Shown here: in pieces, positions 1,154 to 13,922 of the stretch | Layout of the letters: the number at the start of each line of letters is the position of its first letter | How positions within the stretch are numbered: position 1 is the stretch's first letter | Virus record (IMG/VR): IMGVR_UViG_3300024520_000434 | Coordinates: 1-26,145 of that record | Length of the DNA: 26,145 nucleotides | Strand: one strand, 5' to 3' | DNA from: a virus | Program-made: the position numbers and the translations under genes | Notes under the pieces: model-generated | Told to the model about the DNA's origin: nothing | Databases searched by the model: none | What the model saw: only the letters and a program-made list of their open reading frames with translations

Positions 1154-1233
1154 TTCGTACTCCGTTTGGCACGTTGACTAGGGAGCGGAAATCCTAGACA
1201 ATGTGGGCTAATCGCATCCAAACAGGGGTTCCG

Positions 1234-1647
1234 ATGCCAAGCGAACGATCCAGGGATGACGAGGACGGAAACAAGGTGGTTCGCGTGCTCGATGCTCTGT
1301 GGTCGTCTAGCGGCTTGATCTGGGGAATCACGGTCGGCGTACTCTCCGCGACGATCTGGGGGATGACGACGCTTAGTTCGGTGACCACAGCGATCGAACT
1401 GCTTGCGAATGAAAAGGTCAACGCGGACCAGGTCCGAGCTATCTTCGATCGCGAAGGAAGCGTCGTTCGCGATACGATCAATGCCAACCGTGAGGGTTAT
1501 ACGTCTCTGTCCGAGCGTTTGCATCGCATCGAAATCCAGCTTGCTCGCTTTGCCGCAATCATGGAACGAAAGGCCGATGGCGACAAGCAGGGATTCGCGC
1601 CCAAGCGACGAGCAAATCCGACGATCAGTTCCGCGACCAAACCGTAG
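1234..1647 (+). CDS. single-pass membrane protein with coiled-coil tail (holin- or spanin-like)
   Basis: The 137-residue protein has a short charged N-terminus, one strong membrane segment (roughly residues 24-45, LIWGITVGVLSATIWGM) and a long charged helical tail likely to form a coiled coil. I chose the ATG at 1234 because AGGGG lies 6-7 bases upstream. An in-frame ATG at 1201 would add 11 residues but its nearest purine run is about 15 bases away. It begins a run of small membrane proteins that precedes a secreted-type hydrolase, so a lysis role (holin accessory or inner-membrane spanin) is the natural inference. No specific family could be named. Confidence 0.7.
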   Translation: MPSERSRDDEDGNKVVRVLDALWSSSGLIWGITVGVLSATIWGMTTLSSVTTAIELLANEKVNADQVRAIFDREGSVVRDTINANREGYTSLSERLHRIEIQLARFAAIMERKADGDKQGFAPKRRANPTISSATKP

Positions 1648-1684: not shown

Positions 1685-1807
1685 ATGACGCGCCCACCGT
1701 GGCACTGGGTCAAAGCGTACGACGAGCACGACGCAAGGTGGTGGCATTGGGTCTTCGGGACGGCTTTCTTCGCTGTCGCGATGTGGCAACTCTCGGAGTG
1801 GATGTGA
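1685..1807 (+). CDS. 40-residue single-pass membrane protein
   Basis: This tiny gene begins at the ATG at 1685 with GAGGG six bases upstream, and its TGA overlaps the next start (TGATG). The product starts MTRPPWHWVKAYDE, is rich in Trp and His, and has one hydrophobic segment (about residues 21-37, HWVFGTAFFAVAMWQL). An upstream in-frame ATG at 1652 would add 11 residues but lacks a good ribosome binding site. The spacing and coupling argue that it is real. It is most likely a small holin-associated or antiholin-type membrane protein, an inference from position only. Confidence 0.6.
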   Translation: MTRPPWHWVKAYDEHDARWWHWVFGTAFFAVAMWQLSEWM

Positions 1808-1998
1808 TGAGCAAACACTGGCTGGCGAGCAAAACGCTTTGGTTCAATGGTTTGGCAGTGCTTCTTTCGGTCGGGCTGTCGTTCGGGTTTGGCGAGTTCA
1901 CGCCGTCGCCGGAAGCGTCGGAGATCTCGACCGCGCTGATCGCGATCATCAACATCGTGCTCCGGTTCGCGACGACGCAAGCGATAAGGGGTGCGTGA
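1807..1998 (+). CDS. putative phage holin, two membrane segments
   Basis: The 63-residue product has two hydrophobic helices, about residues 12-27 (WFNGLAVLLSVGLSFGF) and 37-56 (ISTALIAIINIVLRFATT), joined by a short turn. The ending NIVLRFATTQAI resembles a group of small phage holin-like proteins that end in N-[IV]-[VI]-L-R-[FL] plus a Thr/Lys-rich tail. Holins form inner-membrane lesions that let cell-wall enzymes out and time lysis. The start overlaps the upstream stop (TGATG) and the stop overlaps the next ATG in the same way, so it sits in a tightly coupled string. The family match is from pattern memory rather than a search. Confidence 0.68.
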   Translation: MSKHWLASKTLWFNGLAVLLSVGLSFGFGEFTPSPEASEISTALIAIINIVLRFATTQAIRGA

Positions 1999-2406: not shown

Positions 2407-2817
2407 GTGGTGGAATGGCGAGAACAGACCGAAGTCGAAGACGATATCGACGAGAAGATTGACGGTGACGTAGGCAAGAAGATTGCCCTTGCGGTGACCG
2501 AGGCGAAGGCAAAAGTCGAGGGCATCGGAGTCAAAGCGGCGTTCGACCCGACCGCGATGATCGCAATAATCACGGCCATTTTCGACGCGATCCAGAATTG
2601 CCGAGGATCGGCAGGAGCACGCATTGCGACGGCTCGCGAGCATCCGCGTGGTTTCGCCGCGTTCGTCATGCGCAGGCAGCTGATCAAGCGGTTCCGCGAG
2701 GACAACGCGACTCGGAAGGACGCCCGGAACTGGGCACGCGCTACGGTCGACGCGATGGGCGAAGCGGCGCCCGATGACCTCGCGGACGTTCTGGAACAAG
2801 CGGAGGGCCAAGGGTGA
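2407..2817 (+). CDS. hypothetical helical protein
   Basis: A 136-residue protein starts at GTG 2407 (a second GTG follows at 2410) behind GAGGTGAG. It has an acidic N-terminus (residues 7-21), an amphipathic hydrophobic helix around residues 46-65 (FDPTAMIAIITAIFDAI) and a basic central helix (MRRQLIKRFRED, 88-99). The stop overlaps the GTG start of the metalloprotease gene by four bases, so the two are likely translated together. I do not recognise a family. Because of the coupling it could chaperone or regulate the downstream hydrolase, which is speculation. Confidence 0.62.
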   Translation: MVEWREQTEVEDDIDEKIDGDVGKKIALAVTEAKAKVEGIGVKAAFDPTAMIAIITAIFDAIQNCRGSAGARIATAREHPRGFAAFVMRRQLIKRFREDNATRKDARNWARATVDAMGEAAPDDLADVLEQAEGQG

Positions 2818-3623
2818 ATCTATCACGCGAACCGGCAATCCCGGACAAGGTCCTTCGCCGAGAGTTGAAGCGAAACGGGTGGATCGGAAAGCAGTCGGTC
2901 ACGCCGGAGCAACTCAAGCGGGCCGTCCAATCGTATCAGCGGCGGTTCGGCCTGAAGGTCGACGGATGGGCCGGGCCGATCACGAGCAGGACGCTGACGG
3001 AACGGTTCTGCGGATGCCCGGACCATGCGCTAGAGGCCCGGTCGGCGTGGGACAAGGACCAGGCGAGAGAAGGTCTCACGTGGGCGATTCCGGAGAAACT
3101 GACCGGCTCGCCGAAGATGTCGGCCGGCGACTACAAACAAGTCGTGACGGTCGCTCTTGCCCATATCTCGACCGTGTGCGGCGCCCGGTTCGTCTACAGT
3201 GCGAACGCCCGCACGGCAAACGTCGTCATGGGCACGCATCGCGAACGATCTGGGGGTGTGCTCGCTTGGTCGCAACTGCCGAACGGTTCCGGGTCGCAGC
3301 TCGAACAGTCGTACGACGACGCCGAGCGGTGGCATTGGGAGAACGTTTCGCCGGCGTCGGGAACGATCGGGCTGATCCACGTGATCCGCCACGAATGGGG
3401 CCACGCCCTCGGCCTCGGTCACGGTGGCGACTGGTTGCTTCGCCCGACGTACGACCCGCGAGCGTATACGTTCCGGAACTGGGAAGCGAAGGAAGTCGTC
3501 GCCCGATACGGGCCACCGCAAGACGTTCCACCGGTCGATCCGCCGCCGGGGCCAGGGGGGACGCGCGAGCTGCGGCTGATTGTCAAGGGCGACTTCACTT
3601 GGGAATGGGAGAAGGCCGAATGA
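2814..3623 (+). CDS. matrixin-like zinc metalloprotease with peptidoglycan-binding-like prodomain
   Basis: The 269-residue protein has two visible parts. Residues about 12-62 resemble a peptidoglycan-binding type 1 domain (AVQSYQRRFGLKVDGWAGP at 37-55). Residues about 80-232 form a matrixin/M10-type catalytic domain with the zinc site HEWGHALGLGH at 193-203 (H193, E194, H197, H203) and an upstream GGVLAWSQLP strand plus SYDDAERW, much as in matrix metalloproteinases. Between them lies RFCGCPD (64-70), close to the MMP cysteine-switch consensus PRCGxPD. The expected Met-turn methionine appears to be leucine (WLLRPTY, 207-213). A proline-rich linker (235-248) and a short strand-rich tail follow. 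No signal peptide is seen. The GTG start overlaps the previous stop and has GGAGG upstream. The neighbouring holin-like genes suggest an endolysin or envelope-digesting role, possibly on peptide rather than glycan substrate. Confidence 0.85.
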   Translation: MNLSREPAIPDKVLRRELKRNGWIGKQSVTPEQLKRAVQSYQRRFGLKVDGWAGPITSRTLTERFCGCPDHALEARSAWDKDQAREGLTWAIPEKLTGSPKMSAGDYKQVVTVALAHISTVCGARFVYSANARTANVVMGTHRERSGGVLAWSQLPNGSGSQLEQSYDDAERWHWENVSPASGTIGLIHVIRHEWGHALGLGHGGDWLLRPTYDPRAYTFRNWEAKEVVARYGPPQDVPPVDPPPGPGGTRELRLIVKGDFTWEWEKAE

Positions 3624-4177
3624 TGCGAATCGCTGGCCTGATCCTGATGATGTTGCCGTTCGGTATCAGTGCCGCCGAGATTGAGATACGCGGCGCCGAG
3701 TCTGTTCGCTTGGGCGACTACACCCTACAACTCGACGGATCGACGACCGTATGGATCGACACGGACGCCGGAACGATCCGCATTGGCAAACCCGGCGAGC
3801 CGAAACCCGAACCCGATCCGAAGCCCGACCCGCCACCGACGGGAATCGAATCTCTGGAGGCGTTCACACGCGCAGCGTTCGACCGGGTGCAAGGGGAGGG
3901 GCCGGACGAGATCACCGTTCGCGAACGGCAGGCCGTGGCGAACGTGTTCGGTGAGTTGGACGTTTCCCGGACCGGCGTTGCATCGAACGAAAAGGAACTG
4001 GGCCAGGCGACGACCGAGGGGATTCGCAGGGTGTTTGGGTCGAAGGCGGACAAGGTGCGGCCGGTGCTGACTGCGATCTTCGCCGAGGCGAACCGGTTAC
4101 GCGATGCGGGCCAGATCGTTTCGATTGACGACTGGGCGAAAGCGTGGCGAGCAATAGCCAAGGGGGCTGAACCGTGA
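3620..4177 (+). CDS. exported proline-linker protein of unknown function
   Basis: The 185-residue product starts at ATG 3620 (overlapping the metalloprotease stop; a second ATG follows immediately) with GGGAGAAGG upstream. It has a clear signal peptide (MMRIAGLILMMLPFGISAA, residues 1-19, likely cleaved near SAA). A short beta-rich section (20-56) and a Pro/Lys/Asp linker (57-73) follow, then a helical domain (75-185). It should act in the periplasm or outside. Its place between a metalloprotease and a thioredoxin-fold protein, with overlaps at both ends, makes a role in envelope breakdown likely. It could be a spanin-like or hydrolase-assisting factor, but no lipobox or catalytic motif is visible. 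Confidence 0.72.
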   Translation: MMRIAGLILMMLPFGISAAEIEIRGAESVRLGDYTLQLDGSTTVWIDTDAGTIRIGKPGEPKPEPDPKPDPPPTGIESLEAFTRAAFDRVQGEGPDEITVRERQAVANVFGELDVSRTGVASNEKELGQATTEGIRRVFGSKADKVRPVLTAIFAEANRLRDAGQIVSIDDWAKAWRAIAKGAEP

Positions 4178-5052
4178 TTCTGTTGATGATGTCGATGCTG
4201 GTCGGCGTGGAATGGCACGACGCCGAAGAACCGCAGGGGATCGCGTGGGCCTCGGCGGTCGTCGAGCCGGCGGCGCTGGTCTTCGGAGAGCCGGACAAGC
4301 CAGTCGTTCTCCCCGCGCCATCGTACGCAGAGGCTTGGGCGGACTCGCTTCGTTCGGGCGTTGGCCTGATGGTCGCTTCGCGCATGGAAGCCTCGGTTCC
4401 CTACTGGCGGGAACGGGCCACGCAGGAAGGGCGGACGTATTGCGTCGATACGGGTGGCGTGTTCCATCAGGGCATTCACCGGCTGGACGTGGCGAGAGGC
4501 AAATTGTGGAGGCGAATCTCGCATCTGTACGCCGGGCCGAATTACTGGCGAATCGAACGGTTCGTCGGGGGTGACGGTTCGGACCTGTGGACCGGGCGAA
4601 CGAAGACGCCCGAGCAGGCCGGCGCCTACGGTAACGTCGTCGTCGTATCGCCGGAGTCGTTCGGCTGTCCCGCATGCGAGGACCTCAAGGGTCGGTTGCG
4701 GGCCGCTGGCGTGGCGTTCCATTCGGTGGCGAACGACCAGGCCGGACCGTGGCCGAGGTTGTACGCGGATGGTCGAGAGATCGAACCGAACGTCGGCGCG
4801 TTGCAGGCCGTGGGGCTGAAGACGAAGAGCAAATCGAAGGCCGTGATTCGTTCGCAAGCAGTCGCTGGCGCCTATTCATCGGCTATGATGGGGATGAGCT
4901 ACAATTCCCAGATGAGTACCAGGATCGTAGAACGAAGCGGCAGACGCGGGCCGTTGCGATCTCTGGGCGCCCTGCTGTTCAATCGGCGCGGCATGCGAGC
5001 GATGCGGGGCCGTTCGATGATGCGAACGAACTACGCGGCGGCCGGTTCCTGA
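4174..5052 (+). CDS. thioredoxin/glutaredoxin-like protein with CPAC motif
   Basis: The 292-residue product starts at GTG 4174, which overlaps the preceding TGA and has AAGGGGG upstream. Residues about 154-215 look like a compact thioredoxin-fold redox domain: a beta strand VVVVSPESF runs into CPAC (C165-C168), then a helix, then PWPRLYADGREI (192-203) with a plausible cis-proline P194. The first 12 residues are hydrophobic (MILLMMSMLVGV) but lack a positive charge, so export is uncertain. The N-terminal 150 residues have an unrecognised Trp/Tyr-rich domain, and the C-terminus (about 215-292) is basic and Met/Arg-rich. Thiol redox activity is inferred from the motif. The coupling to the Cys-containing protease two genes upstream is notable. 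Confidence 0.7.
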   Translation: MILLMMSMLVGVEWHDAEEPQGIAWASAVVEPAALVFGEPDKPVVLPAPSYAEAWADSLRSGVGLMVASRMEASVPYWRERATQEGRTYCVDTGGVFHQGIHRLDVARGKLWRRISHLYAGPNYWRIERFVGGDGSDLWTGRTKTPEQAGAYGNVVVVSPESFGCPACEDLKGRLRAAGVAFHSVANDQAGPWPRLYADGREIEPNVGALQAVGLKTKSKSKAVIRSQAVAGAYSSAMMGMSYNSQMSTRIVERSGRRGPLRSLGALLFNRRGMRAMRGRSMMRTNYAAAGS

Positions 5053-5729: not shown

Positions 5730-5810
5730 CGTTTGCTGGGTTGTCATGCGCCCGGCGGGACGATTGACGTTGTCGCGGCGCCGAGGTTGTTTCTCTTCGC
5801 GAGTCCACCA

Positions 5811-7151
5811 ATGCCGAAGCTGAACCTGGACCATATCGCCCAGCCCCTTCGACGCCTCGCCGTCGACCTGTCTACGGTCGTTCCCGATCCACGCAACGCC
5901 CGAACGCACAGCCCGGACCAGGTCCAGGCCATCGCCGATTCGATGAAGCGGTTCGGCGTCGACCAGCCGCTCGTCGTGCAGCTCCAAGGGCGCGTCGTCC
6001 GCAAGGGCAACGGCCGGCTCGAAGCCGCGACGCTCAATGGGTGGACTCACCTGCCGGCCGTCATCGTCGACGAGTCGGAAGTCGACGCCCAGTGTCGCGC
6101 GCTGGCCGACAACCGGCTGTCCGACCTCGCTGGATGGGATGACGGCGTCCTTCGGGAGTTGCTCGCCGAGGCGCCGGACGATGGCGTGCCTGGTTGGACG
6201 GCGGACCAGATCGCGGAACTTGTCCAGGAAGCCGGCGAGCAGGCCGACCCGAAGCTAGGCAGATTGTCGGGTCTGTTTGTCGCTCCACCGTTCAACGTGC
6301 TGGACACGAAACAAGGCTATTGGCAAGAACGGAAGCGTGAATGGATGGCGTTGGGCGTCGAATCGGAGTTGGGGCGGTTCAAGGGCGAAAACGGTAAAGG
6401 CAGGGTTTTTACAGCGAGCGTCGTGGGCCTCGGCAACAGTCCAAAAAAAACGGTTTCCATCTTTGACCCTGTCCTTTGCGAGATCGCTTATCGTTGGTTC
6501 TGCCCTCCGGGCGGCTCGATCCTCGACCCGTTCGCGGGCGGAAGCGTTCGCGGGATCGTCGCAAGCCGGCTCGGGCGCCAATACGTGGGAATCGAACTCC
6601 GGCCGGAGCAGATCGAATCGAATCGCGAGCAGGCCGACCGGATCTGTGCCGAGCCGTTCCCGGTCTGGATCGAAGGCGACGCGGTCAACGTGGCCGACCT
6701 GACGGCGCAAGACGAGCCGTACGACTTCGTCTTTTCGTGTCCTCCGTACGGTGACCTCGAACGCTACAGCGACGACCCACGAGACCTGTCGGCGATGGAC
6801 GCCGAGACGTTCGACGCAACCTACGCCGCGTGCCTGTCGGACGCCTGCGATCGGCTGAAGCCCGACCGCTTCGCCGTGTTCGTCATCGGTGACGTTCGCG
6901 ACAAGCGCGGGCGGTTGCGGGGCCTTCCGGCTGCGACGGTTCGAGCATGCGAGGGGTCGGGCCTGGTGTTCTGGAACGACGCGGTGCTGTTAACTTCGAT
7001 CGGGTCTCTACCGATGAGGGCCGAGGCTGGATTCAATAGCAGCCGGAAGCTCGTTCGCGGCTATCAATGCGTCTACGTCTTCGCCAAGGGCAACCCGAAG
7101 TCCGCAACCGAAGCCGTCGGGCATGTCGACGTGGCGGGCGAGGAACCGTAG
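5811..7151 (+). CDS. ParB-like nuclease domain / DNA methyltransferase fusion
   Basis: The 446-residue protein joins an N-terminal ParB/Srx-type domain (about 15-120; DPRNARTHS at 26-34, VRKGNGRLEAA at 63-73) to a class I SAM-dependent DNA methyltransferase. Visible methylase motifs are DPFAGG (239-244, SAM binding), YVGIELRPEQI (258-268) and SCPPYGDL (309-316, the catalytic DPPY-type motif, here CPPY). A second conserved block, VAPPFNVLDTKQGYWQERK (157-175), is typical of this phage ParB-methylase family. It probably modifies phage DNA to protect it from host restriction, or guides DNA handling before packaging. I chose ATG 5811, where homology would begin. The frame is open upstream to a TTG at 5733, and no strong ribosome binding site precedes 5811, so translation may depend on the structured leader. 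Terminase follows 75 bases later. Confidence 0.87.
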   Translation: MPKLNLDHIAQPLRRLAVDLSTVVPDPRNARTHSPDQVQAIADSMKRFGVDQPLVVQLQGRVVRKGNGRLEAATLNGWTHLPAVIVDESEVDAQCRALADNRLSDLAGWDDGVLRELLAEAPDDGVPGWTADQIAELVQEAGEQADPKLGRLSGLFVAPPFNVLDTKQGYWQERKREWMALGVESELGRFKGENGKGRVFTASVVGLGNSPKKTVSIFDPVLCEIAYRWFCPPGGSILDPFAGGSVRGIVASRLGRQYVGIELRPEQIESNREQADRICAEPFPVWIEGDAVNVADLTAQDEPYDFVFSCPPYGDLERYSDDPRDLSAMDAETFDATYAACLSDACDRLKPDRFAVFVIGDVRDKRGRLRGLPAATVRACEGSGLVFWNDAVLLTSIGSLPMRAEAGFNSSRKLVRGYQCVYVFAKGNPKSATEAVGHVDVAGEEP

Positions 7152-12746: not shown

Positions 12747-13922
12747 GTGACGACGCTCGCGAGTCCCACCGTCTACCAGTTCTACGCCGACTCAGGCGCC
12801 GCCGATCCCATCCGCTCGACCAAGTTCCGCAAGGACATCCTTCGCGTTGGGCGTTGGCGTATCGGCGATCGCGTTTGGAACGTCACGCGAGAAACCATCG
12901 CCGAGATCGCGGCCAACTTCGACCGCTCACGCAAGGCCGGGAACCGCGTTCCTCTGGTCTGGGGCCATTCGCAATCGGCTCGCGACAAGGCGGGCGAGGT
13001 CGTCGGCCTGTCGATAACCGATGACGGCCGTGAACTGACGATGGAAGTCGCGGCGCAAGATCCCAAGGCGCGCGAGTCGTTGCGGAACGTCGACCACGCA
13101 GTATCTGTCGAGGTCCGCGAACCTTACGTAGACGGGCGAGGCAACCAGTACAGCGCCCTTCTGACACACGTCGGCATCGTCCAACACCCGGTCATCCCCG
13201 GTCAAGGTCCGTTCGTTCAACTCTCTTTGGAGTCTTCAGGCATGGGCAAGAGCATCACGCGGCAACTGGCGGAAGACGAGGTAACGGACATGGTCGCCGA
13301 GGAAGGCGTGTCGGATGCCGTCGATACCTCGGCCGAGCCGGGTTCGCCGAGTTCGAACATGATCGCGGTGAAAGACGTGGTCGAGATGTTCGCGAAGGCG
13401 ACCGGGCAGACCCTGAGCGCCGACATCGACACGGTGAAGGAACTGAAAATCGTAGTCGACATGCTCTTCGGCGCGCCGGCGTCCGATGTCGGGGCCGATG
13501 TGGCCGACGCTCCCGAAATCGACCTGACGGGTGACGAGTCGGTCGCGACGCTGTCGATCCCGGCGATGCGGAAGCAACTGAAAGAGACTCGCCGGCAACT
13601 GTCGATTCAAGTGCAATCGCGCGTCGCCGATTCGAAGGCCGCGTTCGTCCGACGCCTCGACTCGATGGTCAACGCCGGCCAGATCTCGCCGCAATTCCAA
13701 ACCGGGCTGCTGAACGCCGGCGAGGTGAGCCGGTGGCAGATGTCGATTCTCGACCCGTTCGCGGGTTCCGATGGCACCTCGGGGCCGAAGACCACGACGA
13801 AGGTTCGGCGCTTGGCGACCGCGCAGGTTCCGTCGATCGATGGCGCCACCGCGGGGCCGACCGACGCCGAGTGCGCAGCGATGGCCGCGAAGATGCTACG
13901 GCGCCCAGTCGCCGCGAACTGA
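12747..13922 (+). CDS. prohead protease / scaffold fusion
   Basis: The 391-residue protein starts at GTG 12747 behind GGCGGA. Residues about 25-158 resemble phage capsid maturation protease-type domains of the Mu gpI / prohead protease kind (VPLVWGHSQSARDKAGEVVGL at 68-88 with H74; then SVEVREPYVDG and LLTHVGIVQHPVIPG at 138-152). Residues about 200-350 are helical and charged (KELKIVVDMLF; MRKQLKETRRQLSIQV), as in scaffolds. The C-terminus is Thr/Ala-rich. Such proteins shape the procapsid and then digest the scaffold. No nucleophile can be assigned with confidence; S120 and H74 are candidates. An internal ATG at 13242 may give the scaffold alone. Confidence 0.75.
   Translation: MTTLASPTVYQFYADSGAADPIRSTKFRKDILRVGRWRIGDRVWNVTRETIAEIAANFDRSRKAGNRVPLVWGHSQSARDKAGEVVGLSITDDGRELTMEVAAQDPKARESLRNVDHAVSVEVREPYVDGRGNQYSALLTHVGIVQHPVIPGQGPFVQLSLESSGMGKSITRQLAEDEVTDMVAEEGVSDAVDTSAEPGSPSSNMIAVKDVVEMFAKATGQTLSADIDTVKELKIVVDMLFGAPASDVGADVADAPEIDLTGDESVATLSIPAMRKQLKETRRQLSIQVQSRVADSKAAFVRRLDSMVNAGQISPQFQTGLLNAGEVSRWQMSILDPFAGSDGTSGPKTTTKVRRLATAQVPSIDGATAGPTDAECAAMAAKMLRRPVAAN
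13242..13922 (+). CDS. possible nested scaffold product, in-frame internal start
   Basis: ATG 13242 (residue M166 of the long product) is preceded by GGAG nine bases upstream, at the junction between the protease-like and scaffold-like regions. Starting here would yield a 226-residue scaffold alone, as in the lambda C/Nu3 arrangement. This is inferred from position and start signal only. Confidence 0.35.
   Translation: MGKSITRQLAEDEVTDMVAEEGVSDAVDTSAEPGSPSSNMIAVKDVVEMFAKATGQTLSADIDTVKELKIVVDMLFGAPASDVGADVADAPEIDLTGDESVATLSIPAMRKQLKETRRQLSIQVQSRVADSKAAFVRRLDSMVNAGQISPQFQTGLLNAGEVSRWQMSILDPFAGSDGTSGPKTTTKVRRLATAQVPSIDGATAGPTDAECAAMAAKMLRRPVAAN

Follow-up and report, generated by a model that had tools for sequence, protein, structure and literature searches.

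The 26,145-base linear virus record analysed here (the window), which carries terminase, portal, head and tape-measure genes, encodes what is, on the basis of its sequence, a zinc protease of the matrixin type with the domain order of the pro-matrix metalloproteinases (proMMPs) and a CGxPD cysteine switch. Relatives of this protein in dozens of unrelated phages adjoin lysis-like genes, and a latent host-opening enzyme is therefore probable. The best explanation, in which we place about even confidence, is a cytoplasmic protease latched by a cysteine, which lysis would release to cleave proteins of the envelope.

The open reading frame, the RFCGCPD segment and the HEWGHALGLGH motif all lie where a preliminary description of this DNA had placed them (Table 1), and the peptidoglycan-binding-like N-terminus and M10-like domain recognised there were recovered by HMM comparison with Pfam, PG_binding_1 (PF01471) scoring 34.0 bits against a curated cut-off of 23 and Peptidase_M10 (PF00413) 38.0 bits against 24. 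The top sequence match in the PDB (phmmer) is full-length proMMP-1 (1su3; query residues 37-242, E=5.2e-7), in an alignment that spans prodomain, switch and catalytic domain and lays RFCGCPD on CGVPD, so that C66 occupies the position of the MMP switch cysteine and C68 the variable x of CGxPD. The Pfam order agrees with this alignment, and the MMP-like arrangement with cysteine switch first proposed from the letters is thus upheld. A DNA search for CGxPD and a downstream HExGHxxGxxH separated by 117-127 residues gave a single occurrence in the window, against an expectation of zero from shuffles; a motif arising by chance or misreading was ruled out on this count.

Two departures from the MMP consensus accompany the match. 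In proMMPs an arginine immediately precedes the switch cysteine; here Arg64 stands at -2, with Phe65 between it and C66, and the PRCG order does not hold, a spacing found also in some cellular matrixins (RFCGTPD, RFCGVPD). The Met-turn methionine is absent, the stretch WLLRPTY aligning to the Met-turn (ALMYPTY in most MMPs) with leucine at position 209, as had been suspected; Leu is found at this position also in L042, L095, L111, L211 and L237. Neither a signal peptide nor a SAR transmembrane segment was seen at the N-terminus of the matrixin (MNLSREPAIPDKVLRRELKR), which is not hydrophobic.

Table 1. Features around the matrixin gene of the window, and members of the CxxCH family found downstream of matrixins at other loci (window coordinates unless a locus is named)
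Feature	Position	Strand	Remarks
148-aa protein	1201..1647	+	one hydrophobic segment, then probable coiled coil; no significant family match
63-aa protein	1807..1998	+	two hydrophobic segments; holin-like in size and topology only; no family match
136-aa protein	2407..2817	+	one hydrophobic helix (FDPTAMIAIITAIFDAIQNCR); stop overlaps matrixin start (GTGA)
Matrixin gene	2814..3623	+	269 aa, GTG start; 4-base overlap with each neighbour
PG_binding_1, MMP-prodomain-like three-helix domain	2850..2993	+	residues 13-60 (Pfam)
Cysteine switch RFCGCPD	3003..3023	+	residues 64-70
Switch Cys codons	C66, 3009-3011; C68, 3015-3017	+	
Peptidase_M10 catalytic domain	3072..3455	+	residues 87-214 (Pfam)
Zinc motif HEWGHALGLGH	3390..3422	+	residues 193-203
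Leu209 at Met-turn position (WLLRPTY)	3438..3440	+	phmmer alignment
185-aa exported protein	3620..4177	+	signal-peptide-like N-terminus; overlaps matrixin stop (ATGA); no family match
292-aa protein	4174..5052	+	thioredoxin-like CPAC (VVVVSPESFGCPACEDLK); possible short signal sequence; no Pfam/NCBIfam match
Start/stop overlaps of the four-gene run	GTGA 2814-2817; ATGA 3620-3623; GTGA 4174-4177		four bases each
CxxCH family members	L022:8043-9563; L055:8284-9576	-	directly downstream of matrixin
Further CxxCH family members			downstream of matrixin in L188/L257, L171, L198, L211, L237, L095, L175, L263 and others

Relatives of the matrixin were found in about 50 phage lineages. No match was obtained by tblastn among 50,697 deposited phage genomes, nor with the window protein as a single query against viral contigs; the relatives came to light through scans by motif and by alignment. 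The motif scan, which used the DNA pattern given above, found 66 + 15 viral contigs, all 81 carrying open matrixin frames, together with 27 loci among about 85,000 genomes, 20 of them open matrixin frames. One of these 20, assigned to a Heimdallarchaeota MAG (L074, an 11-kb contig), encodes a matrixin closely similar to that of L014 and is probably a mis-binned phage contig. Two alignment scans whose queries were catalytic-domain peptides only, and which did not require the switch, yielded 34 further distinct relatives, and 30 of these have cysteine at the C66 column. Homologues without the cysteine, which the preliminary description had named as evidence against a switch, are thus represented by four distant members of this set (Gly in L262, His in L263, Leu in L264 and L268), while the great majority keep it. 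Around the retained cysteine the residues equivalent to G67, P69 and D70 vary, e.g. CAHPD, CAYPD, CSCPD, CALPE, CNHPD, CMTPD and CGYKP, and three proteins that have no PG domain start about ten residues or less before the switch: L155 (MADTFDGVKICGVPD), L171 (MSDRIICGYKP) and L188 (MDRIICGYKP). Retention of the cysteine amid changing neighbours and after loss of the PG domain is the strongest single argument that this residue has a role of its own. One viral contig carries two matrixins in tandem (L101:6508-7116 and L101:5308-6000, both on the minus strand), with PRCGCPD in one of them and CNVKD in the other.

Of two structure predictions, the one with the deeper alignment docks the prodomain over the active site as in the proMMPs. 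The AlphaFold2 model built from a 72-sequence alignment (pLDDT 84.2, pTM 0.81) is docked in this way, and its top Foldseek matches are whole zymogens: proMMP-10 (9csx; 3.3 Å over 240 columns, TM 0.78 by target) and proMMP-3 (1slm; 3.7 Å). These low deviations from whole zymogens indicate that this model places the prodomain where it lies in proMMPs; karilysin (4r3v/2xs3) was also matched by the models (TMt 0.72-0.77). A model from a 24-sequence alignment (pLDDT 79.4) has well-predicted domains that are undocked, at about 11 Å to proMMPs. Prediction had been put forward as a check on the switch, a CGCPD segment far from the active site counting against it; the segment is not far from the site in the 72-sequence model, although in the 24-sequence model the prodomain stands undocked. 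Since the training set of AlphaFold2 included proMMP zymogen structures and the docked model is zinc-free, docking supports the switch but falls short of proof.

The same body of evidence bears on whether the enzyme is latent at all. The cysteine and prodomain might simply be a legacy of a cellular matrixin, with the cysteine serving folding, a disulfide or metal delivery in an enzyme that is not latent, as might be suggested by the identical domain order of cellular matrixins and by other conserved cysteine columns (122, 157 and 192) in the phage proteins. This reading is considered distinctly unlikely, given that the cysteine is kept with changing flanks and even where the prodomain is lost, and that the docked model resembles a zymogen. 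Moreover, the phage matrixins form lineages separate from the cellular ones, with three changes between phage and cell on the tree, and inheritance alone would not be expected to preserve one residue in families so old and separate.

Judged from its overlaps, the matrixin gene belongs to an operon with translational coupling, in which genes for small membrane proteins precede it and four genes run together with four-base start/stop overlaps. The 136-aa protein directly upstream is a remote homologue of a family that lies directly 5' of jumbo-clade matrixins at 42 distinct loci, and when all ORFs at all loci were searched it was the best match to that family outside the jumbo clade; it was followed by L116 and, among ORFs near matrixins, weakly by L151, both also upstream of matrixins. 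Two genes 5' of the jumbo-clade matrixins lies a protein with two transmembrane segments that gives sub-threshold matches to Phage_holin_10 (E 4e-4, 1e-3) and a weak match to a holin PHROG. Apart from the 136-aa neighbour, the only window genes resembling those of other matrixin phages are RusA, ParB/methylase, terminase and one tail-region gene. The pairing of upstream gene and matrixin in otherwise unrelated phages is the pattern expected of a lysis module. Among the surrounding genes, that at 5733-7151 of the window encodes a ParB N-terminal-like domain fused to an N6_N4 DNA methylase, and in the jumbo clade with RRCGLPD matrixins an RNA polymerase beta-like subunit is encoded near the matrixin (L215:13612-16735).

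The window matrixin has the layout of a globular endolysin, i.e. a wall-binding-type and a catalytic domain with no signal peptide; endolysins of Gram-negative phages usually carry the wall-binding domain at the N-terminus and the catalytic domain at the C-terminus (PMC7912344). A scan for endolysin domains, which covered Amidase_2, Phage_lysozyme, SLT, Peptidase_M15_3, M23 and PG_binding_1 in matrixin phages, whose records are mostly or all probably incomplete, found no Amidase_2 in 40 records and no Phage_lysozyme, SLT or Peptidase_M15_3 in 36 records, many of them fragments. For M23 there were only weak matches below threshold, in large proteins from seven of the jumbo records, and PG_binding_1 occurred once each in 27 of 36 records, being the matrixin itself wherever positions could be compared. 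A true endolysin, in which the matrixin fold is adapted to the peptide of peptidoglycan and the cysteine keeps the enzyme switched off until it binds the wall, would account for the order of PG_binding_1 and peptidase, for the fact that several standard endolysin domains are apparently missing from the same phages, and for the PHROG matches of the N-terminal part, which are endolysins. Those matches, however, reflect the PG_binding_1 domain only, the closest relatives of the catalytic half are MMPs and serralysins, and we know of no M10 enzyme that cuts D-amino-acid cross-links; direct attack on the wall is considered quite unlikely.

Matrixins cleave ordinary L-peptides, and an envelope protein is accordingly a likelier target than peptidoglycan. 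A role in lysis is suggested by architecture, by gene order and by the lack of further endolysin domains that could be recognised; zinc-thiolate latency, release at lysis, a trigger and a protein substrate are inferred. The matrixin, made in the infected cell with no signal peptide, would stay in the cytoplasm, its PG_binding_1-like prodomain covering the cleft of the active site and C66, as the thiolate, bound to the catalytic zinc, whose other ligands would be the three histidines of HExxHxxGxxH; with the cleft so blocked, phage and host proteins would be spared from digestion. Late in infection the small membrane proteins encoded just upstream would permeabilise the inner membrane, and the matrixin could then reach the envelope, where the switch would be released by binding of the prodomain to the wall, by proteolysis or by oxidation of C66, perhaps in a C66-C68 disulfide. 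The active enzyme would cleave envelope proteins, replacing or supplementing an endolysin. Points against this explanation are the leucine in the Met-turn, the undocked 24-sequence model and the naming of the window holins by topology only.

A latent protease might instead act outside lysis: on host proteins in the cytoplasm, in takeover or counter-defence, or carried in the virion to breach a surface layer made of protein when the phage enters. It is a family trait of matrixins that they cut proteins rather than peptidoglycan cross-links, the window enzyme has no signal peptide, and its gene lies upstream of the head genes of the window, a region that also harbours early or packaged functions, all of which would fit such uses. 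They are nevertheless thought fairly unlikely in view of the PG_binding_1 domain in most relatives, the recurrence of small membrane proteins directly 5' and of exported proteins directly 3', the lack of another PG_binding_1 protein and scarcity of endolysin domains in the same records, and a separate candidate head-maturation protease in the window (12747-13922). With that other candidate among the head genes, a capsid-maturation role for the matrixin was rejected.

The preliminary description had found two cysteines in place of one odd; C66 is the switch and C68 the variable residue, and the pair is not peculiar to this protein, a second cysteine close to the switch being common among phage matrixins and all but missing from the cellular ones sampled. 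Cysteines were counted in 62 phage representatives (under 70% identity) and in 18 cellular matrixins picked by the switch pattern. The switch cysteine is present in 58 of the 62, 14 have a second cysteine at position 68, 29 have one at the C77 column, and columns 122, 157 and 192 hold cysteine in 42, 28 and 28 respectively; among the 18 cellular proteins, so chosen, the switch column alone reaches three cysteines. C68 is scattered on the tree, with 11 changes on weakly supported branches, and its near-exclusivity with C77, strong in raw counts, comes down to few independent pairs on the tree and is a lead only. A partner cysteine adjoining the switch suggests oxidation as a hypothetical trigger. 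The enzyme would then be a redox-triggered lysis protease, with C66 on the zinc in the reducing cytoplasm and drawn off it outside by a disulfide with a partner, C68 (C-x-C) in some lineages including the window and the C77 position (C-K/R-W) in others, and the product of a downstream gene, an exported CxxCH protein in many relatives and the CPAC protein in the window, could link the switch to redox chemistry outside the cytoplasm; this elaboration, too, is regarded as rather unlikely. The CPAC protein, encoded two genes 3' of the matrixin, may be exported and is a possible redox partner of the CxC switch.

The CxxCH proteins form an exported family of 430-750 aa with one invariant motif of the haem-c type, encoded directly 3' of the matrixin gene; of the 44 phage lineages with enough flank at least 18 have it there, and of 14 cellular matrixin loci none does. 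No match to this family was found in Pfam, PHROG, NCBIfam or the PDB, and exported c-type-cytochrome-like proteins encoded by phages would be unusual. A second exported CxxCH protein, beginning CSRCGxFGxxCRx, comes next in L191 (11360-12193) and L257 (10418-11191), and one of this pair weakly matches PSCyt1 (planctomycete cytochrome C); from that single weak match a planctomycete host is suspected. The same CxxCH cassette, with no matrixin nearby, is present in a deposited huge phage genome (LR756511, 595 kb; L291:7647-10223). Among 195 genomes of Verrucomicrobiota, considered as hosts, there was one weak partial match and nothing convincing, and plasmid searches gave no host link.

Animals and plants have cysteine-switch zymogens, and so do microbes, among their secreted matrixins. 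No report of phage matrixins or of cysteine-switch endolysins was found in the open literature searched, and the word "phage" is absent from the text of a 2025 survey of microbial MMPs (PMC12587646). The fold and the switch principle are known, and a cysteine-switch zymogen in tailed phages appears to be unreported. A large phage family in which the switch persists even where the prodomain has been lost provides a natural experiment on what the latch cannot do without. If the enzyme acts in lysis, a latent protease does in some phages the work that peptidoglycan hydrolases do in others, which would point to hosts with protein-based envelopes and to a new kind of timed lysis enzyme.

The vertebrate proMMPs (MMP-1, -3, -7, -9 and -10) share with the phage matrixin the order and spacing of prodomain, CGxPD and HExxHxxGxxH; unlike them, the phage protein has no signal peptide and no hemopexin domain, and it has leucine in the Met-turn, phenylalanine between arginine and cysteine, and a second cysteine at x. 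Secreted bacterial and archaeal matrixins with PRCGFPD (e.g. in L068, L071, L073, L076, L084, L085 and L088) have the same domain order and switch, whereas the phage enzymes are shorter, form separate lineages, have extra conserved cysteines and lie beside small membrane proteins. Karilysin, the MMP of Tannerella forsythia, shares the bacterial matrixin catalytic fold with the phage model, but its propeptide is very short and its switch residue is Asp instead of Cys, where the phage enzyme has a full prodomain with cysteine. Globular Gram-negative phage endolysins (PMC7912344) resemble the matrixin in having an N-terminal binding and a C-terminal catalytic domain, no signal peptide and, so far as topology indicates, holin-like genes nearby; they differ in the catalytic domain, which is here a matrixin. 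The SAR endolysins P1 Lyz and Lyz103, kept inactive by disulfide caging (PMC7912344, reference 25 there), are likewise phage lysis enzymes controlled by cysteine, but the matrixin has no SAR segment and its cysteine would sit on zinc. A wall-directed parallel is the latent form of the M23 zinc peptidase LytM, in which an "asparagine switch" places a propeptide residue on the zinc (PMC9662197), in a different fold and with a different zinc ligand from those of the phage matrixin.
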